A stretch of DNA of 64,000 bases, taken from the NCBI GenBank assembly GCA_021234155.1, contig JAJEKV010000006.1:24867374-24931373 (forward strand), written 5' to 3'. The DNA is from Isoetes taiwanensis. Its lineage: Eukaryota; Streptophyta; Lycopodiopsida; Isoetales; Isoetaceae. Position numbers and translations under genes: made by a program. Positions within the stretch are counted from its first letter, which is position 1. The number at the start of each line of letters is the position of its first letter. This document shows positions 8,761 through 63,782 of the stretch, one piece after another. The notes below the pieces were generated by a model. The model had not been told where the DNA came from, did no database searches, and saw only the letters and a program-made list of their open reading frames with translations.

Positions 8761-8999
8761 TGTATTCGAATAGTTTGAGCTGTTTTTAGAACTCATTAGC
8801 GGGTTTTTGCTACTTTTAGATCTAAAGAGTGCCTTTCAAGTTATAATGTTTAGACATAAAAGGGTAGTTTTTCTAGCACAAATTTATCATATTTTTATTC
8901 GAATACACTTTAACGATTCTTTTTATATCTACTTTACAACTACTAATAAGGCTTTGTTAATAGGCAAGAAGGAAACAAGCATACACCAAAAGAACTTTG

Positions 9000-11900
9000 A
9001 ATTTGGTGAAGAAACCTCATCTGCGGGGCAAGGGTGCGGGACGAGAAAAGAGCTTGCCATTTATGAAAATTTCGGACCACAGTGGTTTGTTACTGGGGCT
9101 TATTTGGAAAGTACAACACCCTCACTTTCATGCATGTCTGCGGTGCACCAGGGCAGAAACGTTATGACGATAAAAAATTCAAGTGCATGGACACTATTAA
9201 AAACGTTTTTGAGGTTGCGGTCGGTCACGGACGGCGAGGGGCGTCTTTCATTTAAGGCGTCCCAAAGGTTTTATTATTCTTGATCGGGCATTCTTGGTGG
9301 CGAGTGAATCAAGCGTCTGTACAATATATGGCACATTACATTAACAAAGCGGAGGCTCAGGAAATCATAAAAAGGTGTGCTCTACACAAAGTGAGGACTT
9401 CAACTAGAGTGCCTCGGAGGACGAGTATGTTAAAGAAGAAGGGGGAGAGGCTGGGAGTGCTAGTCAATATGAGTCAGCCCCAAGTACATCAGGTTTCGAG
9501 GGCAGCCCCAAGTAGCAACAAAGGAGCAGACCTCGAGACACTATTGCACCAACGAGCCAAATAAAAAAAGGTCCAACAAATTGATGTGGAACCTCTTCAA
9601 GAGGAAAGCTCGAAGAAGAGGAAGGGCAAAGGAAAGGCACCAGGGGTGGCCATAAAATTGAAAAAGGTGGACAGGACCTCGGAAATAATGGAAGAGATAA
9701 ACAAGCAAAAGTACGTCCAAGGCGTAATTTACTTGCCTGTGATGTCAATGAGGTTACCACCTAAGAATGAAGCTGGAGAGAGGCCCCTTCACATCCGTAA
9801 AATATATGTTGACCATTTAAGGAACCTGAAGGACAAGATCAGGAGCAACCCAAATGCACATGTAGCTCCAATTGTGGTCCTTGTGGACAGAACCCAGTGC
9901 ATTGATCCCAAAGACTATATGTGTAGAGAAAATCTTTGACACATATCCTTTTTCGTTTTGGGGAGAAACCATAGCTTCAAAGCCAGGAGGCAACTGTATA
10001 AGAAAAAGAACAACCCGAGATATCTCTCAGTCCTTTGTGCACTTTACTGTGGCTTGACAGACAAGGAAGCAAAAATCGTTGCCAATATACACAACGCTGA
10101 CAACGAGTACAAATTGAAAATGAGCTTTGACTCCTTGGAGCTTAAGGAGGCATGTGCAATCGAGTGCTGCCTTAAGTACGACGAGGCTAATAAACGGTAG
10201 TCACTGATAAGCCATAACAACTAGTTCCAGCTTGCCTTTAGAGATGGCCGCGCGTATGTTTCCTTTGTATTCAAAATACTTTTTATTCCAAACTAACTAC
10301 TTTCCTCTTTTGAGTGCGGATCACGGGAGCTACAAAGCGAAAATTTTTATATGTTTGGCGGGGAGAGTCGAAGAGCAAAGGAAAGGTCTCGAGATAAAAA
10401 AAAGGGCTCGGCGTCCCAAAAAAAATGACCATCACGTGTGGAGGGGAGATCACGGGGCTTTACGGATATGGAGTTGCTAGAGGCTCCTTCAAAAAGTTGT
10501 GGATAAGGACTTCCTGCTTGGAAGAAATGTCAGGAGCCGCAAGTAAGTTGACATTCACATTTCATTTGTCTTCATCATGGTTTTAAAGTAAAGTTATAAA
10601 TGTCTATTTAGGAATACCTAACCACCATGCAAGTGAAGCGGAAGTACTTATGCTTCACGTTAAAGCAAAAGTATATTTTGGAATACAATTTTGCTTTAAC
10701 ATGAAGCAAAGTGTATTCGGACTACATTTTTTGCTTTAGCGTGAAGCATTAGTGTGTTAGGAATACATACCTTTAACATGAAGCAAAAGTTTATTCGGAA
10801 TAGACCGCTTTATTATGAAACAAAAATGTATTCGAAATACACTTTTTGGTTTACTTGCGTGGTGATTGTGCATTAGGATCTGATGCTAGTTCTCATTTTC
10901 TTTACTTATTTTGTCGGGGAAGTTTGTGTACGCTAATTTTTTTCTTTGTTGACTTTCGGTAAAAAAAATGTCATAATGTGCGAGACATGTTTAATGGGCG
11001 GTTGAGCGTGGACAATTGGGAGAGGTATAAGGAACTTTATCCCGTTGCTACCTCGGTGGCGGATTTTTTCAATCGTTCCAAATTTTGAGGGTTAGGTACG
11101 TCACCTCCTTGTTTTTTTTTAGATTCCTTAATGTGTCTTTGTTGAAGTGGCGATTCTCTTCTAGCAGGAAGAAGAACAAGGACCTACAGGACAGATTCAT
11201 GCACACAGTAAGGAGAGTTCGAGAGGAGAGGACATTAGCGAGCGGCGGATTGTAGATGTTGAACCGTCCGGCTTACGAGAGGTTTTGTATGTTCGATCAA
11301 AATAACTTTTTCGATCATTCATGGGATTTGCACAAAGTTTGGCTGGGCGATAAAGCCATAAGAGATGCGCTTTAGTCATAGGAGACTTACCTTATGGCTT
11401 CAAGGCTGAAAGATAGCCCTTCTGACGACCAGCCTTTTAAGAATTGGGAATTTAGCGTTAAAGTCGATGACATTAAGCAGGTTACCACAGTAAAGCATTG
11501 GCGGCTTGTTGTGTTGTATGCAAGCAGGACTCGTGGAATCTACTTTTAAGAACCACTTCGGCTCCCCTGTACAAGCCGGTTATGAAAATATAGTCTGGTG
11601 AGTTTCTTATTCTTGAATCTGGTTGTTTCTTCCTTAGTTCAAGCTTTGATTCATCGTTGTAATTGTAACTTATCTTCTTCGTACTTTCTATTATGGAATC
11701 GTTGTATTTGAACCTAGAGACCTCATTGAATCCATCTTACGTGTTTTTAAGCTAGCGGTACTTTTTGTTCTGTGGGTACAAAACAAACATTAACTACCAT
11801 GGTGGAGGACCAAGGGCTGTGAGCAAGGTGGAATATCTCCATGTCGCTTACTAGAGTTTTTAATGACAAAGCGCCTTATGAAGCATTTCAACCGTGACTG

Positions 11901-12240
11901 CCGAAATTTTTCCGAATGTGTTAGAGTTCGGGGGTGTTCACTGTTGCGGGACCCAAGTGCACAAAGGCGGGATTGTCAATCATTACCGAAACTTCTGAGA
12001 ACACGATTAACCATCTTACGGATATGTTCTCACGTCCGGGATATTAGGTGCTTGATGCTTTCTCGGCTTTGGTACAACAAAAGCATGTGCACTTAAAGGG
12101 CGCAATTGTGTCACGATTGACATTGACAAGGGAGGCTGTAAACTTTATCAAGATGAAATTATGCCTTTACCAACTCTAACATATGAGAATCAAGAGTTAA
12201 GCGCCAAATCTTCATCGATTTTGCCAAGATGACATCTTGA
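9000..12240 (+). pseudogene. ParB-like/DNA methyltransferase fusion gene, copy 1
   Basis: Three coding blocks follow one another on the plus strand. Block 1 (9000-9580) has MHVCGAPGQKRYDD and a Ser-rich linker. Block 2 (9586-10200) reads like a ParB domain: a lysine-rich lead, IRKIYVDHLRNLKDKI, then APIVVLVD, then GENHSFKARRQL (compare the ParB G-HR--A box), then GLTDKEAKIVANIHNADNE. Block 3 (11190-12180) has VIGDLPYGF, equivalent to methyltransferase motif IV (DPPY), and then HWRLVVLYAS. It also has NTINHLTDMFSRPG, VLDAFS and GRNCVTIDID, equivalent to motif X/I and the acidic residue after it. The order IV then I is that of beta-class N4-cytosine/N6-adenine DNA methyltransferases. ParB plus methylase fusions are known in phages and bacteria. 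Several frame changes and stops, and an array of palindromes between blocks 2 and 3, show that it is not functional as it stands. Relatives lie at 30.1-34.8 kb and 57.2-63.6 kb. Confidence 0.55.
10630..10860. repeat. Second palindrome array, unit GTATTCGGAATAC
   Basis: Five units of about 45 bp, each a hairpin of the type GAAGCAAAA-GTGTATTC / GGAATACAC-TTTTGCTT. It shares the core of the 8460-8760 array and lies between the ParB-like and methyltransferase blocks of copy 1, possibly in an intron or as part of a transposon that landed there. Confidence 0.7.
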
Positions 12241-12249
12241 GATCGACCT

Positions 12250-13340
12250 CCATTTACAAACTCTACGAAAGATGAAGCTACTTTTTTGAGCTTAAAGTAG
12301 CTCTAGCTACTATTCTGAAAAAGCGTAGACACAAACAAAGATGAAACTCTTTGCAAAGGAGCAAGCTGAGAAAAGGACCAACTTGAGACAAGCAAACAAA
12401 ATGAGGAGGAATATGATTTGGATCTCTAACTTGTCTTGTGCTAGATTATTTATTATTGACTATAAGCGATTGCCAAATTTGATAACGAAAAAATTTTAAT
12501 AATATAATTATTATTCTTTCTACCTTATTTAGATGTCTTCAAATTCCTAATTCACGATTGATTGTATACTAAAGTCTAAAAATTTTGCCATTTTCAAGTG
12601 TTCTTCTTTACAAATACAAGATCATCACTTGAAAAGAACCCAAAGTGCTGCGATAATATAATGTTCCTCTTGATTTTCCGAACTTCTTTCAAAAAGGATC
12701 AATGTTTAAAGCATGGTATTTTCTAAAGGGAATCTTTGAAACGGGAATGATGCAACACTCCCGTTTAATTTGCAACAATGTTACATTTGTTATTGCAAAT
12801 ACAAGAGCTCGCTATAATGCAATAGAGCAAAAGCTTTTTCTTTAGTCGAAATGGAGCATGTCCCTTTTTCCCTCTTCTAGGAATGGCATGCTAGCCCTAT
12901 TTTTTTTCCGGCTCCTTCATAGATGAAATACCAAAGATTTGCCCATGATTCAACCACCTTGGTGAGAAAATCTCATGTTTCTTCCCTTGTTAAGAAGCAG
13001 TGATTGCTTAGAAAGACTCAGAGGAAGGCATAATGCATCAGAAGGATTCGATGGATAGCCAGAAACAAGCAGAGATCCCCAAATGTAAAATCATGCAAAA
13101 ATACAGCAAGAATCATAAATGCAGTCAAGAATCATGCAAAATGTAGCAAGCACATAAGAAAAAACTACCAAACGCGTGTTCCTCCAGCGAATCTCCCTCC
13201 CGCGCCATCGGATCTCCTCAGGCGCCAATTTTTCCAGCCGCGCTCTTCGCAGAGTAAACTCAGAATCTAATTTGTAGCCCCTTTGTCCAGTAGGCAAATG
13301 TCTTTGTCCAAAATGTCAAAAGCGTAAAATCTCCTCGAAA
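12250..13340. other. No recognisable gene
   Basis: AT-rich sequence just after the methyltransferase block. I see no conserved motif and no repeat structure of note. Confidence 0.4.
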
Positions 13341-13344
13341 TTGC

Positions 13345-13467
13345 CGGTTAAAGGGGTTAAACCCCCTTGCTCAACCATTTGTGGCAAATAAACAGGCTCG
13401 TGCCTCCGGGCTCACCTGTTTATTTGCCATAACGGCGTTACAAGGTGGTTTAACCCCTTCATAACCG
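13345..13467. mobile_element. Foldback MITE with double stem
   Basis: The outer arms CGGTTAAAGGGGTTAAACC and GGTTTAACCCC-TTCATAACCG face each other. Between them a second pair, GGCAAATAAACAGG and CCTGTTTATTTGCC, forms an inner stem with a GC-rich loop. No clear target duplication is visible. The size and structure fit a non-autonomous DNA transposon. Confidence 0.55.
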
Positions 13468-14029
13468 ATGCCATCAGATATGCCAATTATAAAATGGCTA
13501 TTTTCTTGTTCTTCCAAGATTCAGATTCCAACACATGCACCGTTGTATTTCCGGCTTCGGGCAAGGCTACTTTGGCGGCAGTATTTGAATTTTCTGTGTT
13601 GGGAAGGAGACGCTCATGCTTTCACTGAAGTAATCCTTGGTTTTTTGTTGAGGTAACTTGATTGACATAGTTCAAGCTTCAGCTATCAGAACAAGAAAAA
13701 GATCTAGGTACAGCTTTGCAGAGAGCTGAGATTTTTAAAGAGTCCTGGTTGGCTTCTGTTAGACACACAACAAATAACTCGGTTTTTGCTTTGTCCTAAA
13801 GCTTAGCTATGTATAAATGTTTCTGGTGTAGAAAAAAGATTTCTGGCTATCGATTATCAGGTAATTACATTGTAAGCCTAAATTTGTTTATGGATGAGTG
13901 TGCCTTATCTATTGCTCTATTATTGCCTTTTTTATGTTCAGCTCCAACCACACATAAATCCTCTTCTTTTTAGCTGATTATTTATGTGCAGTCTATCATT
14001 TATTTTTAGGGATACTACCTTAGGGAAAC

Positions 14030-14232
14030 CCATATAGAGATGAGCCCCGATATTTTATATTCCAAAATCTTAGGCGAACCTGTACTCTATATTAAAAAAT
14101 CATAGATGCCCCCAGTCATAAATGACCATAGTCAAAACAAGAGGTAACCAGAGACCCAGCATACGATTTGGATTTGTGGGATGGACAAATGGGTAGTAGG
14201 TTTGTTATGTCATAGGTCCTAGGTCCTTGCTA

Positions 14233-14263
<31 letters not shown>

Positions 14264-14275
14264 TATAGATAGATA
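14030..14275 (+). mobile_element. SINE family member, 3-prime part, with simple-repeat tail
   Basis: The stretch containing AAATCTTAGGCGAACCTGTA, then GTCATAAATGACCATAGTC and AACCAGAGACCCAGCATACG, matches the reverse complement of the two copies at 47.6-48.5 kb over roughly 200 bp. It ends in GAAA and GATA tetranucleotide repeats, as a plus-strand non-LTR element would. The tRNA-like head is not present here, so the copy is 5-prime truncated. Confidence 0.5.
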
Positions 14276-14299
14276 ATGTCCATGGAGACCAAAAAGATG

Positions 14300-15590
14300 T
14301 TCCAACTTATGTGAAGGGTTGATGCCATATGTCCTTGCTAAACAAATGTTTCAAGGTATGCGCGCCTGGCCACACAATTACTAGTGAAATTTAAAATGAA
14401 TGTATGAAGTTCAAATTATGAAATTGGTGCGGAGCTCTTTGTGCAGAGTAGAGCATTTTATAATCTATAGGTAAAAGCACACAATAATTTATCTTGCAAA
14501 TACATGCTCAATTGTATATTTTGCAGCTGAAGGAGTTCTTCAAAAACTGTAAGATCATAGGTTTCATTTTAACCAAGAAATCATGAACTGTAACAAATAG
14601 TCTTCTGCTTGTTATACGGATGGAAACCTAACAAATATTTTGCTGTAAGCTTGACATTCAACTGGGTATGGGTATCATCTACAATGGCAAAATGGTATCA
14701 TCTAAGCAGGAAAAGAAACTGTTCCTGAAGGAAAAAGTTCATGTAGTCATTAATCTTGGTCAGACAGGTCTATTGTGATAAAAGCAGTCTCATAGCCACT
14801 TTGAAATAATTAGAACATCCGCAAACTGTGATCTCAAATTCTATTTGAAAAATAGAACATATGGAATTCTCATCCCAGAGTATAATTCATGAACTATGAC
14901 ACTAATCATTCTGTCAATGCTGATTTCGCCGTGCATCTAAGCGCCCTCAATTGGGAGATTTTAATGCGCTCAGCTTTTTATGGAACGGAGTAGAAGAAAT
15001 AGTCCATTTCTTCGGCCCAAACCATTCTTTAGGTTTTTCCTTGTAAAAACCTCGTGAAAAACAGAGCGATCATTCTCTTGTCTCAGGTCCGCATCGGAAA
15101 GGATGAATCCGGCACCTTTTTTTCCTTTTTTTTTTCCTTTTTTGCAACTATTTTTTTCCAACAGGAGTCATAAGAATATACTCAGCGAATCATGCCTTTA
15201 GCGATTAATAAAGGGTTAGATACTGGGCCCGAACAATCCTTTCCTTATCTACAAAATGTTGGAACATACTTATCTGCAAATTCCAGGAAAGCGCCATATG
15301 TTAAAACGACATATCATGTGTCAACGAGAAACATCAAGTTAATGTCTTCATAGACTAACTTATATTTCTAGGTTCCCAAACTAGAACGTGTTGATGACAC
15401 GGCACAACGCCGAAGAAGATAATTATGCCGGGTAAGCAAAGCACCTTCAAGAAAATGTCATATTTGGATGATTCGTGGATGTACTCGCTTGAAGCCAGTA
15501 AAAATAGCCGGCCTTGAGAGCCAAGGCACCGCGTTTTTCACAGCTCATATCCTAAAACTAAGCATATTAGCATATAGAAGGTAAAAAGAC
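14300..15590. other. No recognisable gene
   Basis: AT-rich sequence with a poly-T/C tract at 15115-15155. No supported feature. Confidence 0.4.
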
Positions 15591-15601
15591 CGTAGTTTTC
15601 C

Positions 15602-16060
15602 TTGCAAAAGTTAAGGATAATGAGGGCAAATGCGTTAGAGATGAAGGTTTTGTGTGTAACAATACAAGGAGGAGAGGAAGAACACCCAATGTCTTTGGGA
15701 GTAAGAGTATTGGCAAGGTCCAAAGATGGAGGGATAGTGTTTAATGGAACAGGGGAGCCATGCAACGGTCCAACATTTCTGAACCTTAGGATAGGCCAGT
15801 TGGACAGGGATTCGCATTTTGCGATGTATGTTTGTAAGGATAGGATTAAAGCAGTTGGGCCAATTGAGTTGGAAGTTTGGCACCTGAAAGAGGTACTTAG
15901 ACGTGCCACACTTGCTTTTGAAGGTGCTTGGTCTATGGCTATGGAGGATTGTGAGCTTTCAAAGAGCTTTGCGGTTACTGAAATAGGACTTATTGGAAGC
16001 TTTCAAGGCTCTCCTCTCATCCTTTCTACCCATTCTGATGCCGTGGTAGAGTCCTTTTAA
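15602..16060 (+). CDS. Hypothetical protein, 152 residues
   Basis: A single uninterrupted frame with balanced composition. It starts MQKLRIMRANALEM and may truly begin at the second methionine (ALEMKVLCVT). It has no signal peptide, membrane segment or motif that I recognise. The middle part (VRVLARSKDGGIVFNGTG, then FLNLRIGQLD) reads like alternating beta strands. An overlapping antisense frame is less protein-like. It could be a small gene, a last exon, or a fragment of a transposon protein. No neighbour helps to assign it. Confidence 0.35.
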   Translation: MQKLRIMRANALEMKVLCVTIQGGEEEHPMSLGVRVLARSKDGGIVFNGTGEPCNGPTFLNLRIGQLDRDSHFAMYVCKDRIKAVGPIELEVWHLKEVLRRATLAFEGAWSMAMEDCELSKSFAVTEIGLIGSFQGSPLILSTHSDAVVESF

Positions 16061-18755: not shown

Positions 18756-18757
18756 AA

Positions 18758-23862: not shown

Positions 23863-23993
23863 GCGACGCAATAAAGTTACCCTGGTTATGGGTCGTGGCA
23901 CGATCATCATCGTGGGTTATTCTACGGGATGGAATCACCCACCGTTGGGATTGCGCCATATCAGCATGACCAGGGTAACTTTATTGCGTTCCT
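23863..23993. mobile_element. hAT-like MITE with 8-bp target duplication
   Basis: The ends carry an inverted repeat that includes CGCAATAAAGTTACCCTGGT (20 bp, perfect) and a less perfect outer tip. The 8-bp direct repeat GTTAGGTA flanks the element on both sides (23855-23862 and 23994-24001). An 8-bp duplication is typical of hAT elements. The 131-bp body has no coding capacity. Confidence 0.7.
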
Positions 23994-24001
23994 GTTAGGT
24001 A

Positions 24002-27419: not shown

Positions 27420-27855
27420 ACCGGAAAGCAGAGTGATCACTTGTGGTACGATCGGGATGGGTAGGCTCAACAAGCTTTCCCCCCTGAGAACCGTACGTGA
27501 GGGTTTCCCCGCATACGGCTCGAGTTCGGTCCCCCAGTCAGTCTCGGCGGAGTAGGTATGGTTTTTATAGGTTTTTATAGAGAATATTCGGGTTTCCAAT
27601 GGTAATTCTTCAGATAAAAAAAATTGCTTTATGAGTTTGATTACTTCTGAGTAATAAATACAGATTATAAAAATCACTATTTGATTTTCACAATTATTTA
27701 TTTCAAATAGTGATTTTTACAATTTCATAGAATCTCGAAAATTATTTTCTTTTACTCTCGTAGAAACGATCAAAGGGTTCCAAATGATCCTTTCCGGAGA
27801 ATTGGATGGTCTCCCCGAACAAGCTTTTTATTTGGTAGGTAATATTGATGAAGCT
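27420..27855. other. Nuclear insertion of plastid DNA (mosaic)
   Basis: Positions 27760-27855 on the plus strand read [22 protein letters not shown] and YLVGNIDEA, the conserved C-terminal region of the chloroplast ATP synthase beta subunit (atpB). Positions 27488-27521, in reverse complement, form a 34-nt group II intron domain V beginning GAGCCGTATGCG and ending CACGTACGGTTC, followed by domain VI-like sequence ending CTACCCATCCCGAT. A 15-bp inverted repeat around AATCACTATTTGA at 27668-27719 resembles a plastid 3-prime stem-loop. The atpB piece and the intron piece are in opposite orientations, so at least two organellar fragments were joined. The exact left border is approximate, and the intron piece could be mitochondrial. 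Confidence 0.7.
27488..27521 (-). ncRNA. Group II intron domain V (fossil)
   Basis: A 34-nt hairpin with the AGC catalytic triad at its base and the GAAA-type loop, of the same length and pattern as domain V of the yeast ai5-gamma intron and of plant organellar introns. It is carried inside the organellar insertion and has no host role here. Confidence 0.75.
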
Positions 27856-28639
27856 TGCACTGGACACCACCATTCCACACGCACCTTATTGAAGTTAACA
27901 CCACCTTCTTCTTTGCAAATATCTGAGATGGTGTATCCCAACCACACCGGATAGGTCTGTAAATCTGCTGGTTTTACTACCACAAATTGGTGGCACTCCA
28001 CGTCAGTTGCTGGTTCATAAACATCTAGGCCTAGATATTTTGGCCTATCTTTCTTAGGACCAACATAGTGTTTGTCAGATTGAGGAGGAGCATGGGCCTT
28101 AACAATGCTACTAATAGTGCCATCATCTTCCTCAGCACCTGCTAATGTCCTCCACCTGCTTTTAGGGAGCCACCCTTCAGTCAATTCTTCTGAGGATGTG
28201 TCTATCTCATCCAACAAGTCAATCACCTTCTTCCAGTAATCTATCAATGCACGATTAGTGTCATCAGAATTAGTTTGCCAATGCTTGATGTAGTCATTGA
28301 TGCCATCCTGGGTCAATCCCACTTGATTCACTTCTGTAGTAGGTTTTAGAGCTTTTGGTTGACCTGGAGGTATCATAGGCTTGCCATTCGCATCTCTATG
28401 CCAGATTTCTGCCCCTCCTCTCCACTTCTCCTCTGAAGGTCTCATCTTCCATTGCATGATTGGAATCCCATCTCTCACCCAAAAAGTGAATTGAAGAGGT
28501 CTAGAATGGCCTTCCATGTCTTCAGTATAACCTTCCACAAAACTCTTCCAATCAGGCACCTCTTCTATGAGAGATCCTATAAAAGATGGAGTAGTGCATC
28601 CATGGAATATTTCTGGTATATACTTCCCTTGGACGACCA

Positions 28640-28970
28640 TCAACGCTGGACCCTATACAAGATACTACTTAATTGTGCTGTTCAAAACATTCAAAGAGAG
28701 TTGGACAAGCCATATGACAGTCTGTATCAGGGGCCATGGGAATGCTACCATCGCATCACTGGATTTATGCGGCTCCTCATGCTCTTAGTAAGGCTCATGC
28801 CAACAAATAAATATGAGGCTTTGATTAGGAGTATCAAGGATCGACGGGACACTCTGATTTGGAGACTCGACATTCGCAGGGAATGGGAGGATGATGTCAT
28901 ATCAGAGTGGTACAGGTGGGACTGGACTCAGTATGTAGCCGATGAAGTGGGCCTATGTGACATTTCGTAG
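28640..28970 (+). CDS. Unidentified exon-like frame
   Basis: The plus strand reads a well-balanced frame of about 110 residues ending at a stop: YKILLNCAVQNIQREL, PYDSLYQGPWECYHRITGF, YEALIRSIKDRRDTLIWRLD, then WYRWDWTQYVADEVGLC. It begins almost exactly where the minus-strand DUF7869-type frame ends, so it may be an upstream inverted piece or a separate small exon. I do not recognise the family. Confidence 0.3.
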
Positions 28971-29363
28971 AGATATGTACAACCTGCTATGTTAGTTTAG
29001 AAAGAACTCGCGCCTGGCGCATTTTCACAGAAGGAAAAATGTACATATATGTTTTTTGAATATAAATACAAACTCGGGCCTGACGCAATTTTGCAGCTTA
29101 TATCACGCTTATTTTATTATGTTTTTTTATATGCAATGTCGAAAACATTAAATCCTTTGATGCCCTCCAGCCAGTATGACCAACCCCAAGAAGCTACACA
29201 TTTTTGTTAATGTGTAGTTTCATGGGGTTGATAAGACTGGCTAAAGACCATCAAAGAATTCAAAATTCACAACATTCAGAATTCAAAGAATCCAATGTAT
29301 TCAAAATAAGTTATGATCTAAAATATTATAGCTTCTTTGTATCAGAAGGTCTGTACATACCTT

Positions 29364-29610
29364 TTTTAGACGTTCTTTTGGCCATGCCACAAATGTGCCC
29401 ACGCTCTCCCCGATTGTGTCGCCACCAGGATGTCTTCTTGGAAGAGCTTCATCCTCATAGTTGCAATTTATAATGCTAACTTTACAGAAACTGTTTCCAA
29501 GAGGGACACCATGGCACTTAGATTCAGGTTCCAGGTCTTCGATTTTACATAATCCAAGTCGACGCTTCAAGTTTGCTGTTAATAGATAGCATTCTTCTCC
29601 CATGCTGATA
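29364..29610 (-). pseudogene. Exon similar to the C-terminal part of CACTA-associated proteins
   Basis: A single exon on the minus strand with both borders visible: an acceptor (polypyrimidine then ATCAG) before MGEECYLLTANLKRR and a donor (AAAAAG then GTATGT) after WPKERLKK. The motif order GVPLGNSF, KVSI, EALPRRHPGGD, TIGESVGTFVAWP matches the segment (DUF8039/TNP1 type) found near the C-terminus of many plant En/Spm-associated proteins. It is on the same strand as the adjacent DUF7869-type copy, and the two may belong to one element. It was assigned from remembered patterns. Confidence 0.45.
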
Positions 29611-30050
29611 ATTGAAAACATTAAAAAAATGATTTCTTCAAGAATATAATATGTTTCAAGAACAGTCTTCAAATCCTACTGATAGCACTCACCATAGTTC
29701 GACCACATGATAGCGCGGTCGAGGCGGCCGATCGGTCGAGGAGGCGATCGCTAAGTCGAGGCGGGTCGATCACGCGAGGAGGCGAAGTTGATCAATCAAG
29801 GAGGCGGTCGACCAGAAGAAGTCCATGAAGTTGATCGGGTTTCTTGAAAATTCGGTGGCTTAATGAGCATGTGGAAGCAGCGTGCCACATAGGGCTTTCT
29901 TGAAAATAATAAAAATAAATATTCGTGGATTTGCTTTTAATAAGAAAATTAAGTTTTTAATTTGAAATGAGCGGGATAATGTTAATATAGGCGGAATAAT
30001 TGTAATTTAAAATCGGGAGCAACTGGACGGTTCGTGATAATGCACCCATA
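29611..30050. other. No gene; short GC-rich GTCGAGGCGG repeats
   Basis: Positions 29705-29815 hold irregular repeats of GTCGAGG-GGCG and GATC motifs. The rest is AT-rich. Nothing else is supported. Confidence 0.4.
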
Positions 30051-33100: not shown

Positions 33101-34805
33101 TGCACTATCTTTGCAAAATGATCTCGAATGCATTAAAGTGATGAGGCAAGCAAAGAATGATAGATGAAAACAAAGATAGTGAGTTCAAGATCAGAAAGTA
33201 AGATCTCACATGTGCTAGTCCTTATGATAGTCATTATGGATGATAAAGAATATGAAAGACTCAAGGGGAAACCGTAAGGTGAGAAGATTTCTTGGCAAGC
33301 ATATCGGCCAGACGAACCCCTAGTGAAGAATGTTTTTTATGTCGAATCCATGTGAAGACAAAGGGAATAAGATTGCGATGTGGATGTGGACCTTATAGAG
33401 GACTTAAGAGGAAGAGGAAGAAGAAAAACTGGTGGACCTCGCCCTTAATTCACCAATCAAGTATGAGCTACCGAGGGCATAAGGGGAGGCTGAACAAGTA
33501 CGGTTTTCTTTTGGCCCTTTCAAGTTTTTGATTGAAGCCTTCCGCGCTTTAGAGTCAACGTGTTGGGAGTTTCATGTTGAGGTTATGTCGGCTCCGGGAA
33601 GCTTTGAAGCTAGCTAGGAAATGCCAAAGCGTGGTCTCTGATGGTCAAGCCAAGGACTTCCTTGATATTTTTTCGAGAAAGTGCTAGAGGTGGCACCTAG
33701 GGGGTCCAATAGGTGGTGCAAGAAATAAAGCTTCCACCTCTAAGGGTAATTACCTCCGTGATCCGCTAAAGAGCCGAGGACATGAGAAAGCGATGGAGCG
33801 GATAAATATGAATTTCGACAACCAACCGGATAACTATGCGCGTAGATCGCGCCTATACTTCCAATCACATATGAAACTCTGACGGAAGGGGATGTAGACA
33901 ACGCAAACCAAGAAGACAAAATCCAAGATGATACAGTGGAATCGGAAAGCTCTAGCCGTTAGCATAAAGAGTAATGAAGTATCAACCATAGTTCAAACAC
34001 TAAGTGATGTGGTTGACACTTCCCGCGCATCGAAGACAACCGAGAGTAAGCTCATCATTGCGTAAGTTGAACAGAACCGTAAAGGTATGTTCTTCAAACA
34101 ATGAAAATCGCCAAAGCGCCGATTTCAATTTTTTTTCCTTATCTCACAAGTGTGTGCTTTCTTATTACGCACCTAAACCGTTTCCTCCAAAATTATGGTG
34201 TTCGATTTGAATGGAGTGCTCGCAAAACATTACCTAAAGCAACATTCACCCTATCATGGTATGCACAGAAACCATTTGAGACACGCATTTTAAATGGGTA
34301 TATCCGCGTCAGTATCGAAAGGAGGAGATGTTAGACCAAGCTTTCACTTTATTTCATTGTGCAATTTGGTCATCGATGGAGAATAGAAATATACAGAAGT
34401 TTTGAGAGTAGTTCCCGAACTACATAGAGATTGGGCATCCGTTTGGGATCGAGCAAATGTAAGTCATTTAAAACCGAAGGATCCAACGTGTAAAAATATA
34501 TTTGTGAAATGCTTGAGCATGATATGATGGATGACTTTCATGTTCGTGAGAAGGAAGGCATCATTATAGTTGATGATGACGCCTTGAAGTGTTGCTTCAA
34601 TCAGTCACAGTCACTAAATCCACCATCCTATCATCCTGATATGGTTACCATAGATGATTTTCTGCTTTGCTTCATTGGTGTCATGCAAAAAATAGCTTCA
34701 GGAAAAACGGTCGAAGAGATACAAACACTATACCCGCAACTTGATCGGACAGGGAAAATTGACAGGGACCTTGAGAAAATCGTTCTAGAAAGGGAACTTT
34801 TTTGA
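30108..34805 (+). pseudogene. ParB-like/DNA methyltransferase-type gene, copy 2, strongly decayed
   Basis: Exon 1 (30108-30229) reads MASWRIRLTRGRGGG, has one in-frame stop, and ends at a GT donor. Exon 2 starts at 30732 after TTTCAG with GSSKNVKRKSKQVQG, a basic, nuclear-localisation-like stretch, and then reads DLPEGSEWYVEIFKTSGK. Around 31600-31800 the frame VLIWNKLEDFIGNP, FMIIDGQIQMDE lies where a ParB-like box would be expected. At 32935-33141 the frame TLFVLDSRGTRW, DDYITFFNTCVVLM fits a decayed motif IV region. Near 33580-33700 MSAPGSFEAS and YFFEKVLEVA fit motif I and the following helix. The last frame ends ELF at 34805. Similarity to copy 1 is clear in layout and weaker in sequence. 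The middle is full of stops and frame changes. Confidence 0.38.
31941..32071. mobile_element. Foldback MITE with nested hairpin
   Basis: The arms AGCGCTGGCGTTTT-ATTAATCA-GATTTACAAGAAAT and their complement enclose a second perfect hairpin built on GATTTCTTCATGT / ACATGAAGAAATC. It sits inside the decayed methyltransferase-type copy 2. No target duplication was identified. Confidence 0.6.
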
Positions 34806-48484: not shown

Positions 48485-49130
48485 CATGTGCATACAACAT
48501 AGCTTTGTCTCGTAGAAAATGGGTCCAATAATGTAGTTGGTGAGTATGGGCTTGACTTATGTACAACTTCGTCCCATGCACTTATCAATATGTATACAAA
48601 ATGTGGAAGTTTAGATGCTGCAGTTGTAGTTTTTGATCACATGTCTTGGCACAATGTTGTTTCATGGAATTCATTAATTATAGCATATGCGCAACATGGA
48701 TATGGAAAAGAAGCCATATGCACCCTTGAACAAATGCAGGTAGAGGGCATGATGCTTGATGAGGTTACACTCTATAGCATCCTTTCTGCTTGTAGTCGGG
48801 CTGGCCTTTTGGAAGAAGGATGTCAACACTTCATCTCTCTTACTGGATATCACGGTATCCAGCCAACATTGATACATTATAATTGCCTTATTGACCTCCT
48901 TGATAGAATGGAATAATTGGCTGGATCAGAGGTATGTAACCTACCATTTCAAGCTGATGACACATCTTTAAGAGCTTTTCTTGGCTCATGTAAAATCCAT
49001 GGCAATCTTGATCGTGCCAAACGTGCAGCATAGCTTGTCCATGAGCTAGATTTAGAGGACTCTTCATCCTATGTATTACTAGCAAGCGCATTTGCAAGAC
49101 CTGAGAAATTGAATGATGCATCAAATGATG
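48485..49130 (+). pseudogene. PLS-type pentatricopeptide repeat protein, C-terminal remnant
   Basis: PPR proteins bind organellar RNA. The plus frame reads SHALINMYTKCGSLDAAVVV, then the motif start MSWHNVVSWNSLIIAYAQHG, KEAICTLEQMQVEG, TLYSILSACSRAGLLEEG, then PTLIHYNCLIDLLDRM. After that comes an E-type segment (TSLRAFLGSCKIHGNLDRAK, SSYVLLASAFARPEKL). This is the order P/L/S motifs then E motif. In-frame stops are at 48914-48916 (TAA) and 49031-49033 (TAG). No start or full array is present, so it is a truncated dead copy, possibly a retrocopy because no introns are evident. Confidence 0.8.
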
Positions 49131-51110: not shown

Positions 51111-51114
51111 TCCA

Positions 51115-51765: not shown

Positions 51766-51994
51766 CCATCTTTCATTAAACGCTTTTAGTGCCATCTTGA
51801 AAATGTGAACTTCTTAAGCTAAATTCTGATTCAAGTTGGTGCTCTGCATGCTACTTCTCAAGAATCTTTCAAGGTCCTAGTGGAAGGTTAGTGAGCACTT
51901 TTCCGACTTTTGAATTTGACCCAATGTTGCTTAGCAGTTATGTAAGATTTTGTACTGTCCATTTTGTAGAGGAGACCAGCAAAAACCATTATAT

Positions 51995-55100: not shown

Positions 55101-55141
55101 AGCATTCTAGAATGGAGCTCGCATGAAAACGACAAAAACCT

Positions 55142-56100: not shown

Positions 56101-56348
56101 GGAAACTTAGATGTAGTTTTTTACCGAAGTGTTTCGGGTGTTTTTTTCAAAAAATTGAGATATTCCTTTCACCTACATGCTTTCGAATAGTTACAACCAT
56201 TGACACATGCAGACCATATACTATGCGGGTGCAACTATGAGGGTGCGGCAGTGGGGGAACTACCAGGTACGGCACTATCATGGTTCATTGTAAAGGCGGG
56301 AAAACAGAGTTGCAGAAGAGGAAAGAATAGAGCGATCCCACAGCAAAC

Positions 56349-56873
56349 ATGGTAACCACGAGGCTCCAACGCGGAGAAAATAGGCTACGCATGCAGCGAT
56401 CACTATCTGAATCGCTTCTGGATAGAATGAATGGCTTACAGATGGAGATCCTAAGAAATTTTAAGAAAAGACACAGCACCGAGTTCCAATGCTGCGTTAG
56501 TCGACTAGTGAAGGTAGGGGCTCATACAGGAGGAGTAGACAAAGAGGCAGATACAATGGGGAAGCAAGAGCAAGTATATTACATTCTACAGCTGAAAAGG
56601 GAAGTAATCAGATGTAAGGCCCTGGAAACAATGCTGAAAATGACCGAGCTATGGCTGAACAATTATCTCAGGTGCCATTTCGAGAGAAACTACCACCTCT
56701 TCCAACAGAAAAGGAAAGCACATGTGCTATTATTGCTGGACAGGACGCCGCACAATGCAGAAGAATTCGACAATCTCTTGGTGATCTTCAGCAACAAACT
56801 GTGCTACTCAGTCACACTGAAAGACATGATATGCGAAAATGAAAGCGGAACATTGCTACAAGCATCAACATAG
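56349..56873 (+). CDS. Hypothetical protein, 174 residues
   Basis: An open frame starting MVTTRLQRGENRLRMQRSLS, rich in K, R, E and L and probably helical (coiled-coil-like from residue 75 on). A second plus frame in the last third (QDAAQCRRIRQSLGDLQQQ) looks equally protein-like, so a frame change or chance opening is possible. It lies convergent to the methyltransferase-type gene. No family is recognised. Confidence 0.3.
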   Translation: MVTTRLQRGENRLRMQRSLSESLLDRMNGLQMEILRNFKKRHSTEFQCCVSRLVKVGAHTGGVDKEADTMGKQEQVYYILQLKREVIRCKALETMLKMTELWLNNYLRCHFERNYHLFQQKRKAHVLLLLDRTPHNAEEFDNLLVIFSNKLCYSVTLKDMICENESGTLLQAST

Positions 56874-58746
56874 ATGAATCGTAGCATGTTTGTAGACCAA
56901 TGTTCTTGTGAAACTAAGCTTGTAATTTGTTTTGTTGATACTATGTTTTAACAGTTCATAAACTTCAAAGTTCAAATGTATTTGCAATCATAACTTGTAT
57001 GCGTAACAAATATCTACTTTTGATGGCAATTTTCAATCCATGTCATTCCTCATCTGCCTCATCATCTATATAAATACACCGCCTTATCCTCTTTTTTGCT
57101 AGTAACAAAATTGGTGACTCAATCAGCTCCATAAGATAGGCTGTTTGGGTTGCATAAGGTGGCAGCATACTGTTGGCAATGGCAGATCAGTCAGTTAAAT
57201 ATCTGCAAAAAGAATGAAAGCACATAAAACAGTTCAAAATACCAACTAGTCATCTGGTTCATCCACATCCTCGGCCATAATGCCTGCCTTATCAACATTT
57301 GCAGAAATGTCTTCAATGGCATGTTCTTTAACAATTCTATCATCAATGTTTGCGTGTTTGTAAGACAGCCGATTGTCTTTAACATCTTCATACATGTCTC
57401 GGTCTTGCTCTAGGCCATAATAATGCCTACCACGAATTGCACATGCCTCCATAAGAGAACCAACACCCGGCATTAGATCCAACACCAATGAATTTGTCGG
57501 GGAAAAGCTAGATACAATGAACTCCATGAAACGGACTGATTTCTCAAGATTGGACCTGTCGTTTCTTTTCTTAGACACAAATAACTTCTCTTCATCTGGC
57601 AAGTAATGCACAATTGTCGATGCATGCTGATTAAGGTCTGCACTGCTGAAGACATTCTTAGAGATCCTTGGTGTTTTCAGCCCTGCTCTAGAATACACTG
57701 ATAAGCAAATGTGGTTTTTGTGACGCCGAAGGGTGTGGAACTGTATATATGGTACAGTCTCCTTTTCTGCAAATTTCTTTTCTTTGCATTGAAATTGATA
57801 TTAGGTAGCTGATCATCTGTGCATATGACTATGAAAAAGCCATTGTCATCCATACATAAATTTGCAATGACAGTGATGTTCTCAATGAAGGTGGAGTCGC
57901 ATGAATTCCATCGTGGAATTGTAGAATGACCACATGTTGGGTATTGACTTGTAGGAAGATCACAGAAAACGATGTGGCAACCCCAATCCCTGTTCTTACC
58001 ATTCCTTTTATAAGCATGATCGGCTAGCTTATTCTGTTTTCCAAATTCTCGAAATACTTTGAAAATGGATGTATCTGATTCTGAAGTGAAACTTGCAGTC
58101 AAAGCAGATGCACTTGCCCATACATAACCTATAGAGCAACTACCATATTTCTTTAGATCATTTTCAGAAGGATCACCATGTCCTGATATTTGAGAATCCT
58201 TACTAAACCTATTGAGGACGACATCTTGGCTATCATGCATATGTGCCAAGTTTTCATCATTCTCTTCATCTGATATGACAATATCATGTCTACTTTTTTT
58301 GTTTTTGTTTTTTAACTTCTCCTTGCATTTTCTTTTTGTATTTTCCATCTCTGGACTTGACACATTCTGCGAATGTGATGGATTAATTGAATTTATATTT
58401 GTTTGCGAACATGCTGCCCATGTATCCTTCTCTTCATTTGGATACTCACTCTCTGGAAAATCTAACCACCAAGGACACTCGTCAATTTCAAATTCTACTA
58501 ACTTTGAATTGAATCTCTTATTCAGATTGTCCGAGTACATCCATCCTTGATCATCATGGTAGTACAGTACTTGGTAGTTTGTCCACGTACTTCTTATGAA
58601 TAGCATGCTTGATGTACCTGGAAATAGCAAGGAAGAATAATTTTTAGTGAAGCAATAAGTATTGAATTTATATCAATAAGATTCTATGTTAGAGTACCTG
58701 AAGACTATTCTTTTGGCACAATTGAGAAGATCATGTGCTTTATCGT

Positions 58747-58748
<2 letters not shown>

Positions 58749-58810
<62 letters not shown>
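58749..58810. repeat. GATA microsatellite inside a coding exon
   Basis: About 15 GATA units. On the minus strand the frame of copy 3 stays open through it as a serine-leucine-tyrosine-isoleucine repeat and continues into YDKAHDLLNCAKRIVFR before a donor site. Confidence 0.9.
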
Positions 58811-61800
58811 AACGGTGTGGGACATGTGTTTCTCATTGTTGACGAATATCTTCTTCCTGTACTCCATTTTCATGTAACGGAACCAAGTATGTACTGTTTC
58901 TGTAGTGTTCTCTAAATGAACAAATTCAGGCTCATCCTCTTGTATGGCATTTAGAAGCTCCTTGCTTTTTTTTAGAACATGCTGCAACCAAGTTTCTTTC
59001 TTGATCCATTCATGAAAATCCCTGTCATTACCTGGCATTTTGTAGCTATTCATGAGGTTTGACTCAGTAGTGATAAGCAATATCCAATTGTTCCTATCAT
59101 TGTCTATTGTTGCCTTGGCCATATCATATAACTTTTCTAGTGTCAATTTAAAATCTTTTGTGCTCACATCTTTGGAGGTCACTGCCTTAAGCCATGTTGG
59201 TCCCAAGCTGGGGCGAACAATTGCTAAGTATTTATGTAGCTTATTTGTCCATCTTCTTCTAACTTCTTTCTCGGATTTTTCTCATGCTTTTAACTCTGGC
59301 ATTTTTTGTGTGTGGAACTTCAGCAACACTTCAATCTCATTTTCAATATTGGCCTGCACATACTCGTTGTTAGTTCACACTACAAGTAAAATATTATTTG
59401 CTTGCCACATTTAATGTACCTTGTATAAGATCTGAGCTAGCATGAATCTAGTCAGAGGGTACCAAGGTTCCTCTCCAAGCACTTTCACTTCTTTAGCTCT
59501 AGCTTTTGCTATCTCTTCTTCTGTCACTTCTTTGGTAAAGATTCTTAAGTCTCTGGTTGCCACAAAATGTCCTTGAGTGTCTCTCTTACAACTCCTTTAT
59601 CGTTCAGTCTACACGGAAAAAGCATTGAATAAGTACAAATAGTGGCAAACAATTTATGACAAGCTCAAAATCTGATCTCACTCATTAATTCTTCTCATTG
59701 CAGTTATGAGTTCAGCTTCTCTTTTTCTATCAACCTCCACAAAGGTTGCTTGAACTCTGATGTGCATGCTCAGGGCATATGTGTATCTTTCAGAAATTTT
59801 CTCCATCCAAGCATTGGTACAATGGTTCTCGTCCCAGCACAAAAACATCTTACCTGATAGATTAGACCAATGTGGATTAGTGGACAGTTCCTGCTCAAAG
59901 TTTTCGTTCTCCACTTGCTTATTATCATCCCAAGAACTGATCAATTCCTCAGTAACTGGAGTCTCTTTACCCTTGGGTCCCTTTATGGACAATATGAATT
60001 GTCCTTTTTGCATAATATAACCGTCTCTTCTTAAAGTATCATGCAACTGTTGACAGTTTCGTATAACCATTCTCACAGCCTCGTGTATTTGCATTCTGCA
60101 TAATGGAATGAGGGGTGGAGGAGATTCCCTGTTTATCTCTAGCTCCTTTAATGTCTGTGATACTTGATTCACAATGAACGAAGCTGGCAGCTCGTCATTA
60201 TCTCCATCACATTGTTGTGTGGCCCCAACGCGTGAAAATATTTTTACCCCGGTTATTGTGATTCCATCGCAAGATATTCTTTCCCGCGGAATCACAGACC
60301 CTCCGGGAACGGGATCTGTTCCGGAGGACCCGTTATCCATACCTGACAACGTCAGGTGTACCTTCTGATGGATCCCAGCCATCCGTTTGTAGGGTCTATC
60401 CTGGCCGTCCTTTTTATACCTTCCGGCAGAATCACATCCGCAAAATACCGCCGGACGGAATCACGGCTCTGTTATTCCATGCGGCGGAATCACCATTTGA
60501 AATATAAAACTAAAAAATTCAAAATTTTTACGTCCTTTTCTTCTTGGAGTTTTTTTCAGCCAGTGCAGTGCCGGCTATGGCGGCTTGCTCCGGGCGATCT
60601 TCCTTCTTTTCTTTTCTTGTTATCGTTTTACTTTCTTCTACAGATCCGGAATGGTGGCTATGGCGGAAAACATTTCGGTGCTTCATTTTTAAGAGCTATT
60701 TCGTGCTTCATTTTTTAAGCTTTAGGGTATGGCGGCAGTAAGACCTAAGCAGCTTCTGTTGGTTTTCTTCTGATAGCTATACTAAGCTTCTGTTGGTTTT
60801 CTTCCGATAGCTATGGAGGACCGTTTCTCTGAATCACCGCAACTAAGACCGAACAAGAGGAGAGGAAGGCCACGAAATTGGTTTTGGTGGAGGCTTTGAG
60901 CTTAAGAACTTGCTTTTGTTCATTAAGGCAATGGGTTGAGAATGCTCCGCGGTTATCAAGAATGGACATTTGAGCCTTTGTTTGAGGTAACGTTGCTCTT
61001 ATTATGCTTTGCTCGCTTTTGGTTTGGCTTTGCGGTGGTGCTAACTCAATGCATGCGTATTGTTTGTAGGGCTGAATAACTGGATCAAGCTGGGGCATCA
61101 TTGGCACCAATATGAAACTAAGGTTTCGACCGAACCGCATGGAATATGTAATCCGTAATGGTCGGATTTGAAAACCCATGGAAATATCCGAGGCTTTTTC
61201 TCGGGGGAAGATCAAGTTCGGGACAGTAGATAGTCGATGTCTCCTATATTTCCTTGTCTCCTATATTTCCTATTGTTGTTTGGGCCCAAAAAGTTCATTC
61301 AACCGCCTTTTCCTTCGTTGTTCATATCGAGCAAATGCTGCAAAGTTATGTTTTTTATTTGGGTTAGTTGGCTTTGACCTTGAGGAAGGCATTTGGTTAA
61401 TTACTCCGCTTGAGAAACCTATTTTGATATTGGAAAATCTTAGAACCTACCGTAGTGCGTAGGCAAGCCCTTTATTATGATCTTTGTGATTTTTCTTACC
61501 AGAGTGGCCGAACCTCAAGAAAAAGCATTCAATAATGTAAACCACCCTTCATTCTTTTCCGCTTTCGTCAAAAAGCTTCTCAAAAAAAGAAAATCATGTC
61601 TTTCATTTTAGTTTGTTAAACCCACCCTTCATTCTTCTTTCTTCGCCCATTTTTCTAAGGAGGAGGAATGTTGGCTGAGCATGGCCGGCTAGCATGGCCA
61701 TTGTTCCCGCCACAGAGATAGATCTTAATGACCGAAGTTTGAATCCCGCGGACGTAAATAAATCCTCGTCCGCGGATTGAATTTCGGGTTTGTGTTGAAT

Positions 61801-61909
61801 CTAAAGAAATGGGTTTCTAATCCATTTTTGCTATGTTTTTGTTCTCATGTTAAAACGGGTATGTTTATTGTTTTGTTCTTACTTTGAAGCAGCCCATGGC
61901 ATTGCCGAT

Positions 61910-61986
61910 AATGGCAAGGGGTTCAAATCCCCAACCAGAAATGTTAAGGCAAAGGCAAGGGGTTCAAATCCCCAACCAGAAATGTT
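61910..61986 (+). repeat. Small tandem repeat with T-arm-like motif
   Basis: Two copies of GGCAAGGGGTTCAAATCCCC followed by AACCAGAAATGTT inside the Mutator-like element. The GGTTCAAATCC core resembles a B box, but no A box is found. Confidence 0.6.
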
Positions 61987-62179
61987 CTGGGCAAATCATA
62001 ACAATGGACATGCACACCCAACTTGTTTTTTTCAACCATTGGTTTAGTATTAATTTTCTTCATGATCTTCAAGTAACATAGGCTTTGCGGAATGCAGATC
62101 TGATCACTCAATATTGGGTCTTCCGGCTTCATGATCAGGTCTTCCGGCTTCATGATCTTCAAGTAACGTAGGCTTTCTG

Positions 62180-62610
62180 AGGAGTGATTCCATCTGGCAG
62201 AATCACGGCGGAGTGATTCAATTCGACGGAATCACTAAACTGTGATTCCGTCCCACGGAATAGCGCGGTTGTGATACCGTCGGGCGGAATGCATTCGTGG
62301 TGATTCCATCTCGAAGAATCTTACATTTGTGATTCCACCGGGCAGAATCGCATGGTTGTGATTCCGCCGGGCGGAATAGCAAGGTTGTGATTCCGTCTGG
62401 CGGAATAACACGATTGTGATTCCGTCTCGCGGAATAAATAATACGGTTGTGATTCCGTCTGGTGGAATAACACGATTGTGATTCCTTCTCGCGGAATAAA
62501 TAATACGGTTGTGATTCCGTCTGGTGGAATACATGAGCGGTGATTCCATCTCGAAGAATCGTAAATTGGTGATTCCATCTGGCGGAATAGCAAAGTTGTG
62601 ATTCCGCCGG
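62180..62610. repeat. Palindrome array inside the Mutator-like element
   Basis: About 12 units spaced near 38 bp, each GTGATTCCG followed by a variable 3-5 bp and CGGAATA or a variant. Inter-unit variation falls in the centre and the spacer, while the arms are conserved. Likely subterminal binding sites of a transposase (inference). Confidence 0.8.
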
Positions 62611-62896
62611 AAGGTATAAATGACTGGCGACCCCGCAGTCACGGATAACGGGCTCTGTACGGATAACGGGTCTCCTGGCCGGTGATTCCGCAGGAGGGAA
62701 TATCTTGCGATGGAATCACAATAACTGGGGTAAAAATATTTTGTTCCGACCCCAACACTATCTCCTCCTTGTTGTTGCATGACATCGATGGTTTCTCCTT
62801 TCCCTTCATCCGAGTTTACTACATTATCATCCTCCTGATTTTCACAATTATGGGGAGTAGCCACATCATGATGAGGTTCATTAGCATCTAATGCAT

Positions 62897-63540
62897 TCCC
62901 ATCGATCCGAGACATCGGATCGACATTCTAGAATGGGGCGAGCATGCATGTCTTGCATGCATGCATGCGGCGCATGCCCTTTCTGGTTGGGAGTTCGCTA
63001 TTTTAGGCGCGGTTCTGCATCAACATCTCATCGGCGCTTCCTCTTCTCTCAGCAGTACCTTATTCTCTTTGAACCCACCCTCCCCCCTTTCTTTGTTTAT
63101 TGTATTTGTCGCCTGGCATGCGTGACCAGCCCCTCTATTTGAAGAGGTTTTTGTTTTTTGTCGCGTGGCACGCGTGATCAGCCCCTCCACTCTGGGAGGT
63201 TTGTTTTGTCTCGTTTTGTTGTGTTGGTGATGTGCAGGTACAGGTTAGCGAGCGACATCTGTTTTGACTTCTCCATGCATGGGTTTTTGGGAGCAATTTC
63301 TATGCCTTACGTTTGTCCAAGCCCCTTGCCAAAGGCTTATCACTAGGGTTTTTCCTCGAAAACCCGAAAGGGCGGGGTTTTTTAATCCCGGTGATAAGCT
63401 TTCGGCAGGTACACCAGCCACACATCTATTAGCATTGTAATTTTCGGGTCCAAATGATATAATTGGATTTTCCCTTTATTTTTCGTGGGTAGTTCGCATG
63501 TGTGCGGCTACCCACTGTCCACCATTGTAGAAAATCTGCT
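62897..63540 (-). mobile_element. 0.65-kb repeat family, copy 2
   Basis: 644 bp, the inverted counterpart of 55142-55812. It is bracketed by a 26-bp direct repeat (62871-62896 and 63541-63566, one mismatch) that starts ATGAGGTTCATTAGCATCT. The direct repeat is coding sequence of the methyltransferase-type gene (it reads DANEPH in both copies), so the repeat landed in the first exon. No open frame, no poly(A) and no long inverted ends are present; the mechanism is unknown. Confidence 0.75.
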
Positions 63541-63782
63541 ATGAGGTTCATTAGCATCTCATGCATCATAGTTAGTACTATGTGAGGCCATGTCTGTGCC
63601 AACATCAGTAGCCTCTGAATCATTAGGGATTTTTTGAGATCATAAAAGGGCCTTCTAAGAACTGCTGACTAAGCTATATGAACTACCAATCGTAAAGCGA
63701 CGGTAATCCGGTCGACAAAAAAGCGATTATAACTAACTCCTTTGGATCACATTTTCTAGCATAAGTGTTGATAGAAAAGTCC

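Follow-up and report, generated by a model that had tools for sequence, protein, structure and literature searches.

Results

A probable decayed two-gene element in the window

The window, i.e., the whole 64-kb stretch of Isoetes taiwanensis DNA analyzed here, contains a ParB-methyltransferase gene (copy 1) and an upstream neighbour which together are probably the decayed remains of a two-gene TIR transposon of streptophyte plants, whose ParB-methyltransferase would mark the DNA of the element. The layout and the homologies are directly observed, as are TIRs and selection on both genes in Azolla-associated relatives. Both genes are dead in the window.

The ParB-like exon of copy 1 (9679..10257, + strand; box GRNHSFKARR) comprises the N-domain and the start of the next domain, and is broken at 9937 by a TGA and near 9963 by a change of frame. 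It is recovered by a frame-aware profile (score 314 vs 47.8 ± 9.2 for 12 shuffles), by an HMM over 9679-10125 (iE 8e-28) and by tblastn against the ParB exon of the Azolla-associated locus L008 (E 4e-26), and its joined pieces have 16 homologues (E 7.6e-21 to 1.4e-17). A fold test places the N-domain in the ParB/Srx superfamily. Pfam ParBc gave no match in the window or its relatives, at E up to 10 in one search and up to 1 in the others, with only a weak likeness to DUF6551 in some members (0.03-0.12). As candidate CTP-binding motifs, GG-x-H-x-x-E-A-R and H-N are invariant across 24 aligned proteins, with an Arg-to-His change with respect to the Arg-rich box of ParB proteins.

The methyltransferase part follows on the same strand in two pieces, each spread over two frames: motif IV (GDLPYGF) and the next strand at 11318..11570 (tblastn to motif IV exons, E 7e-6 and 1e-5), and motif I (VLDAFS / GFGTTKACALKGRNCVTIDID) at 12006..12229 (tblastn E 0.004; Pfam N6_N4_Mtase 1.7e-4, under the gathering score). 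The whole part has a profile score of 212 vs 46.9 ± 7.9 for 12 shuffles. Motif IV lies at about 11.38 kb, ahead of motif I at 12.0-12.2 kb (~12.05 kb), and this order and the two profile scores bear out the earlier note, which had read copy 1 as a ParB domain joined to a beta-order amino-methyltransferase. The motif IV tetrad departs from (D/N/S)-P-P-(Y/F/W), being D-I-P-Y in all seven aligned Azolla-associated exons, D-L-P-Y in copy 1 and D-F-P-Y in the Chara protein P0041; KsgA/Erm enzymes have (N)-(I/L)-P-Y.

Head-to-head with copy 1 lies a decayed relative of the DUF7869-domain protein of Azolla-associated contigs (5344..7376, - strand), a protein that we infer to be a transposase. The DUF7869 match is 3.7e-51, and some Asp residues are invariant in 4 sequences. 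The remnant is well supported over 5702-6987, with both ends weak: 6984-6136 is found by tblastn (E 2.3e-28, 34% identity, containing stops) and 6609-6148 by HMM (iE 6.6e-33), as are pieces at 6987-6904, 6916-6797, 6815-6441 and 5875-5702 (iE 0.0054 to 7e-5), the outermost being 7376-7230 (iE 2.7) and 5412-5344 (iE 4.3). Its frame-aware score is 629, the median of the 62 tile-strands being 60; the end point of that match, 4025, is a tile edge and is not trusted. Neither this remnant upstream of copy 1 nor the palindrome arrays had appeared in the earlier note.

Palindrome arrays

Four sites of a palindrome, AAGTGTATT-MGG-AATACACTT, lie between the divergent genes (8480..8696; pattern search, repeat search and palindrome scan), and pattern search places two more between the ParB and methyltransferase exons (10709..10844); with up to 3 mismatches allowed, 100 shuffles gave zero matches. 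A different palindrome, GTGATTCCG-N5-CGGAATMAC, is found 5' of copy 3 in 13 places, mostly at 29-bp spacing (62184..62704; pattern and repeat search), with two extra places at 60273-60493; its 28 strand matches fall in 16 places, for a chance mean of 0.03. Palindromes, as putative sites, cluster near the ParB gene at copy 1 and in six of the nine Azolla-associated loci, their sequence in the window differing from that of the Azolla-associated elements; a candidate site for the ParB-HTH part of L001 is GAAGTCGATGC-NNN-GCATCGACTTC. In all six palindrome-bearing loci every palindrome is confined to the region 5' to the ParB gene, and the palindrome is therefore absent from the TIRs.

Azolla-associated and other relatives

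One MAG contains nine diverged copies of the ParB-methyltransferase (the Azolla-associated loci), and the transposase is on the opposite strand in all five contigs that reach far enough. TIRs, matching with 1-7 mismatches of 34, are present at both ends in 3/9 loci and at one end in 5/9, with none at L009. The window, 64 kb in all, yielded none with as many as 12 mismatches allowed, so that TIRs were not found for copy 1. A candidate target-site repeat, AACA, was noted at L001, where a gypsy integrase frame adjoins, with none clear at L007 and L008, and insertion of the element within a gypsy ORF is seen among these loci. At L001 the gypsy frames sit outside the TIRs, and the ORF list shows no ORF >100 aa between them beyond those of the two genes.

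Eight of the nine loci retain methyltransferase exons, and the motif IV exon is ahead of the motif I exon in the six of nine that have all three. Pfam N6_N4 matches above the cut-off were obtained for the L001 gene (2.3e-16) and for the Ginkgo-style protein P0035 (7.8e-19), and Chara P0041 had no N6_N4 match at E <= 1. The ParB exon is under purifying selection (2 usable pairs), and relatives are recorded in Ceratopteris, in the Ginkgo-style protein and in Chara. The suggestion of a mobile family is thus supported by TIR-bounded relatives bearing the transposase; the accompanying suggestion of a viral derivation found no backing, no relative being found in viral contigs in scans with the last exon of copy 3 and with the family alignment.

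Copies 2 and 3

Copy 2 scores 64.5 with the ParB profile and 55.8 with the methyltransferase profile, below the shuffle maxima of 70.2 and 73.0, and its tail (34.2-34.8 kb) has a likeness to NIF/FCP1-type phosphatases (Pfam 0.0081, under the cut-off). The last exon of copy 3 (57246..57797, - strand) carries a motif I region of the N6_N4 methyltransferase type (Pfam N6_N4_Mtase 5.6e-7, above the gathering score), with matches to DpnA in the PDB (E 0.0013), to P0035 (4e-4, a single blastp comparison) and, at E only 0.19-0.26 by tblastn, to the Azolla exon. An upstream frame (57677..58669, - strand), read directly, holds a candidate motif-IV-like VFCDLPTSQY, with no Pfam match and E 0.76 against the motif IV exons (hhalign). 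The proposed ParB box of copy 3, DENHCTNAW, is not sustained: Pfam ParB gives nothing there up to E 10, hhalign against the family gives E 0.26, and the profile score of this part, 70.0, is background, at least four unrelated tiles reaching 69.2-71.1 among the best nine tiles of the whole-window scan. On these profile, Pfam and hhalign results, the three diverged copies of the earlier note reduce to one demonstrated ParB-methyltransferase (copy 1, positive for both parts by profile), one N6_N4_Mtase of unproven kinship (copy 3) and one unsupported copy, negative for both (copy 2).

Discussion

We favour a TIR transposon in which one gene encodes the DUF7869 protein, the putative transposase, and a divergent second gene encodes a ParB/Srx domain, a possible HTH and an N6_N4 methyltransferase in one chain, with palindromes arrayed between the two. 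The ParB part would load onto its own array and spread along the element, and the methyltransferase would add N6-methyladenine, or less likely N4-methylcytosine, to element DNA, a mark that might spare the element from silencing or flag its DNA for the transposase to move. More tentatively, and less likely than not, a eukaryotic transposon may have co-opted the bacterial ParB-parS clamp: a ParB switched by CTP would load on the array of the element and slide from there, its fused enzyme laying 6mA over the element, as a self-marking, sequence-addressed anti-silencing system. The AMT1-6mA pathway has been reported as lost in plants.

The same anatomy would be expected if the ParB-methyltransferase were a transposition factor with no role in silencing, bridging array and ends while methylation marks newly replicated or already excised copies; Dam methylation times some bacterial transposons, and an array between divergent genes could be a regulatory or assembly spot. 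The palindrome is, however, not at the TIRs in the six palindrome-bearing loci, and we consider this reading possible but unlikely. Rather improbable is an auto-regulator that would repress both divergent promoters through the palindromes, as KorB or restriction-modification control proteins do, its methyltransferase protecting against nicking by ParB: retention of methyltransferase exons in 8/9 loci goes beyond what a repressor would need.

Purifying selection on the ParB exon and the records in Ceratopteris, the Ginkgo-style protein and Chara would also suit a plant host gene family lying beside transposons by chance. This is made highly improbable by the opposite-strand transposase in 5/5 contigs, the TIRs on both sides in 3/9 loci, the nine diverged copies in one MAG and the insertion into a gypsy ORF. 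Three diverged members of one family in the window are very doubtful too: copies 1 and 3 share an N6_N4 motif I and are both preceded on the 5' side by a palindrome array, but the ParB part of copy 3 and the whole of copy 2 are at family-profile background.

A TIR transposon that carries a conserved ParB-methyltransferase, present in contigs associated with ferns and having kin in Ceratopteris and Chara, would bring a bacterial-type DNA mark into plants and would offer sequence-specific anti-silencing by a second, unrelated route. The L001 copy is intact, and with this copy, its palindromes and native nanopore sequencing the idea can be tested directly. Among the matches listed from the open-licence literature, none reports a TIR transposon with a ParB-methyltransferase.

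Comparison with known systems

The best solved match of the methyltransferase part is CcrM (PDB 6pbd; E 2.6e-9, with both motif IV and motif I in the alignment), the N6-adenine methylase of Caulobacter, which has ADPPY in place of ADIPY and lacks the fused ParB part. DIRS retrotransposons, eukaryotic mobile elements that likewise carry an adenine methylase (Dam-type), are described in passages of PMC6338049, where methylase-encoding transposons are stated to be absent from land plants; unlike DIRS, the present element has TIRs and, by the L001 ORF list, no reverse-transcriptase-sized ORF of its own. VANDAL transposons, in the sections of PMC5735166 that concern them, bear an extra gene for VANC anti-silencing proteins, and have short motifs in tandem, different from one family to the next, which sit in noncoding parts and introns. 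The likeness is one of layout only (a plant transposon, an extra gene, family-variable tandem motifs); VANC causes loss of methylation in contrast to the apparent methyltransferase here, and palindromes replace the short motifs.

With ParB/Spo0J, Noc and KorB and their parS-type palindromes, the family shares the N-domain fold, a possible HTH and palindromes clustered near the gene, but it has GG-x-H-x-x-E-A-R in place of the Arg-rich box and a fused methyltransferase; no ParA was noticed on reading the ORFs of L001 and L008. The ParB-methylase fusions of bacteria and phages (Bce_0392, polyvalent proteins; PMC5512222) also join a ParB-superfamily domain to an adenine methylase in mobile elements, whereas the plant element, with no Pfam ParB match, has introns, an extra HTH-like part, a DUF7869 neighbour and TIRs.

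Relatives of copy 1 and their origin

The pieces of copy 1 (9.0-12.2 kb, plus strand), joined with X into one query, recovered 16 proteins (E 7.6e-21 to 1.4e-17) from 6,167 candidates. A profile built from these homologues was then scored against 7,994 candidates, with 41 matches at E <= 0.01. Usable names are available for three of the 41: Ceratopteris richardii KP509_1Z236600, Chara braunii CBR_g44476 and Gb_10123, which we take from its identifier style to be from Ginkgo biloba. In bacterial and archaeal genomes, the family profile found nine loci (L001-L009), all in contigs of one MAG (uncultured Trichormus sp., ERR2144891 bin), which contains eukaryotic-looking DNA in these loci. The Azolla cyanobiont is named Trichormus azollae in PMC12376041, and 'Nostoc azollae' 0708 is counted among its strains. 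Because spliceosomal introns are present in L001, together with an integrase flank of Ty3/gypsy type, the nine contigs are probably fern DNA within the MAG.

A two-gene transposon with terminal inverted repeats

The Azolla-associated loci represent a DNA transposon with two divergent genes. In L001 and L008, an exon with a ParB fold is followed by exons matching the methyltransferase profile and preceded by an open frame on the opposite strand, roughly 870 aa long, that corresponds to DUF7869 (Pfam, 3.7e-51 and 1.8e-52), the presumed transposase. By tblastn this frame is found in L001, L003, L004, L007 and L008, every time on the strand opposite the ParB exon; the remaining four contigs start 81 to 618 bases ahead of that exon, a shorter distance than the 866-base gap between the two frames in L001. 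Methyltransferase exons occur in eight of the nine loci (all three in six, two being truncated by the contig end), and tblastn found none in L009. In L007 the ParB exon is missing its 5' portion, the motif IV exon of L008 has a frame break, and other copies carry stops. The L001 gene can be read as a stop-free 960-aa product if four GT-AG introns are removed, a chain that scored best among 60 without stops. A weak first model of protein P0001 suggests an N-terminal five-strand barrel (residues 46-112) ahead of the ParB part.

Inverted repeats about 34 bp long, carrying 1 to 7 mismatches, bound L001, L007 and L008 on both sides; L002, L003, L004, L005 and L006 have one at a single end, and none was found in L009. 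L001 sits in an apparent gypsy pol frame. Its left flank contains Integrase_H2C2 and rve, and its right flank, where Pfam gives no match, resembles by eye an RT/RNase H end. AACA is repeated in the L001 flanks and the frame stays open once one copy is removed, as it would with a one-base repeat; the L007 and L008 flanks have no clear repeat. Purifying selection seems to act on both genes in the relatives, with dN/dS of 0.07-0.12 for the transposase (six pairs, dS 0.96-2.73) and 0.06-0.08 for the ParB exon (the two of 15 pairs with estimable dS).

Palindromic sites clustered 5' of the ParB gene

The palindrome GTCGATGC-NNN-GCATCGAC, allowing up to 3 mismatches, occurs 44 times 5' of the ParB gene (L001 5, L002 4, L003 15, L004 10, L006 8, L008 2) and nowhere else in those six contigs; L005, L007 and L009 have none. 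In L001, L003, L004 and L008 the palindrome stretch sits between the divergent genes. Copy 1 has its own palindrome, AAGTGTATT-MGG-AATACACTT, which occurs four times at 8.48-8.70 kb and twice more within the gene, at 10.71-10.84 kb (0 in 100 shuffles). For copy 3 (57.2-63.6 kb, minus strand) the palindrome is GTGATTCCG-N5-CGGAATMAC, found at 16 places, of which 13 fall within 62.18-62.70 kb, 5' of copy 3. The layout therefore recurs, each time with another sequence. A single palindrome of the copy 3 type lies at 23916-23938 (minus strand), remote from the array.

Vestiges of this layout in the Isoetes window

A six-frame reading shows copy 1 to be broken across several frames. Its ParB-like stretch (9.68-10.26 kb) is interrupted by a stop at position 9937 and shifts frame near 9963. 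Methyltransferase motif IV (GDLPYGF) follows near 11.38 kb and then, at 12.0-12.2 kb, motif I (VLDAFS / GFGTTKACALKGRNCVTIDID), whose piece matches N6_N4_Mtase at 1.7e-4, below the Pfam gathering score. Head to head with copy 1 is a decayed transposase at 5.3-7.4 kb on the minus strand, the sole strong place for Azolla-type transposase profiles in the window (tblastn 2.3e-28; HMM 6.6e-33 for 6609-6148; frame-aware score 629 vs a median of 60 over 62 tile-strands). The best tiles not overlapping this element score 82 for transposase, 71 for ParB and 82 for methyltransferase, vs medians of 60, 50 and 54, and are read as background. No terminal inverted repeat was found around the copy 1 element in the window. 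We hold the identification of copy 1 as such an element with high confidence. A weak transposase-profile match at 46-360 on the minus strand (HMM iE 1.5e-5; frame-aware score 74, near background) is possibly another remnant, truncated where the window ends.

Copies 2 and 3

The earlier note had proposed three diverged copies of a ParB plus methyltransferase gene, a description that holds for copy 1. Copy 2 (30.1-34.8 kb, plus strand) is not confirmed as one, its profile scores being at the level of unrelated tiles: against 12 shuffles each, the frame-aware profile gives 64.5 vs 53.1 +/- 7.0 (maximum 70.2) for ParB and 55.8 vs 58.6 +/- 6.3 for methyltransferase. Cross-matches among the copies, self excluded, are limited to a motif I match between copy 1 and copy 3 (E 0.077) and 13 residues between copy 2 and the copy 1 lead (E 0.93), and pieces of the copies tested in Pfam gave no match to the ParB profile.

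For copy 3, the methyltransferase is supported and family membership is not shown. Its last exon matches N6_N4_Mtase at 5.6e-7, above the Pfam gathering score, and 12 shuffles each give 70.7 vs 47.7 +/- 5.1 (maximum 60.5) for methyltransferase and 67.8 vs 50.3 +/- 6.2 (maximum 64.9) for ParB, heights that unrelated window tiles equal. With hhalign against the family, motif I reaches E 0.0014 (probability 17) and motif IV E 0.76; the ParB part once assigned to copy 3 gives E 0.26 (probability 0.2). From these profile, tile and hhalign scores, copy 3 is a frameshifted amino-methyltransferase gene with an upstream palindrome array, whose family membership is not demonstrated; it may represent another family of this kind, more distantly related. 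A search for its relatives returned none. An in-frame (TCTA)n microsatellite lies within the gene at about 58748-58812.

The copy 2 tail (34199-34805, plus strand) resembles a decayed phosphatase of the NIF/FCP1 type (below the Pfam cut-off at 0.0081; first motif by eye). Upstream of copy 2 and divergent from it, a fragment at 27828-28652 (minus strand) resembles the end of the DUF7869 domain, with Pfam values of 0.13 and 0.24 that fall below the cut-off, and might come from another, more distantly related transposase. An open reading frame at 29301-29675 (minus strand) is weakly like TNP1/EN/SPM transposases (Pfam Transposase_23 0.13, below cut-off). A group II intron domain V at 27451-27523 (minus strand; Rfam RF00029, E 3.1e-8) probably marks an organelle sequence inserted into the nuclear genome. 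At 38.5-39.8 kb and 48503-48916 (both plus strand), inspection by eye suggests Ty1/copia polymerase frames and a frame of pentatricopeptide repeats.

Proposed function and known parallels

We propose that the ParB part would bind the palindrome array and spread from it, and that the methyltransferase would methylate the element's DNA, which could affect silencing or transposition. This self-marking mechanism is tentative, with chances slightly below even, and the identification of copy 1 and the mechanism, taken jointly, are rated as reasonably probable. Among the matches listed, no description of the element was found in the open-licence literature. A bacterial ParB-methylase is already on record in PMC5512222. 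The nearest functional parallel is VANC of the Arabidopsis VANDAL transposons, whose targets are described in PMC5735166 as tandem motifs that vary between VANDAL families.
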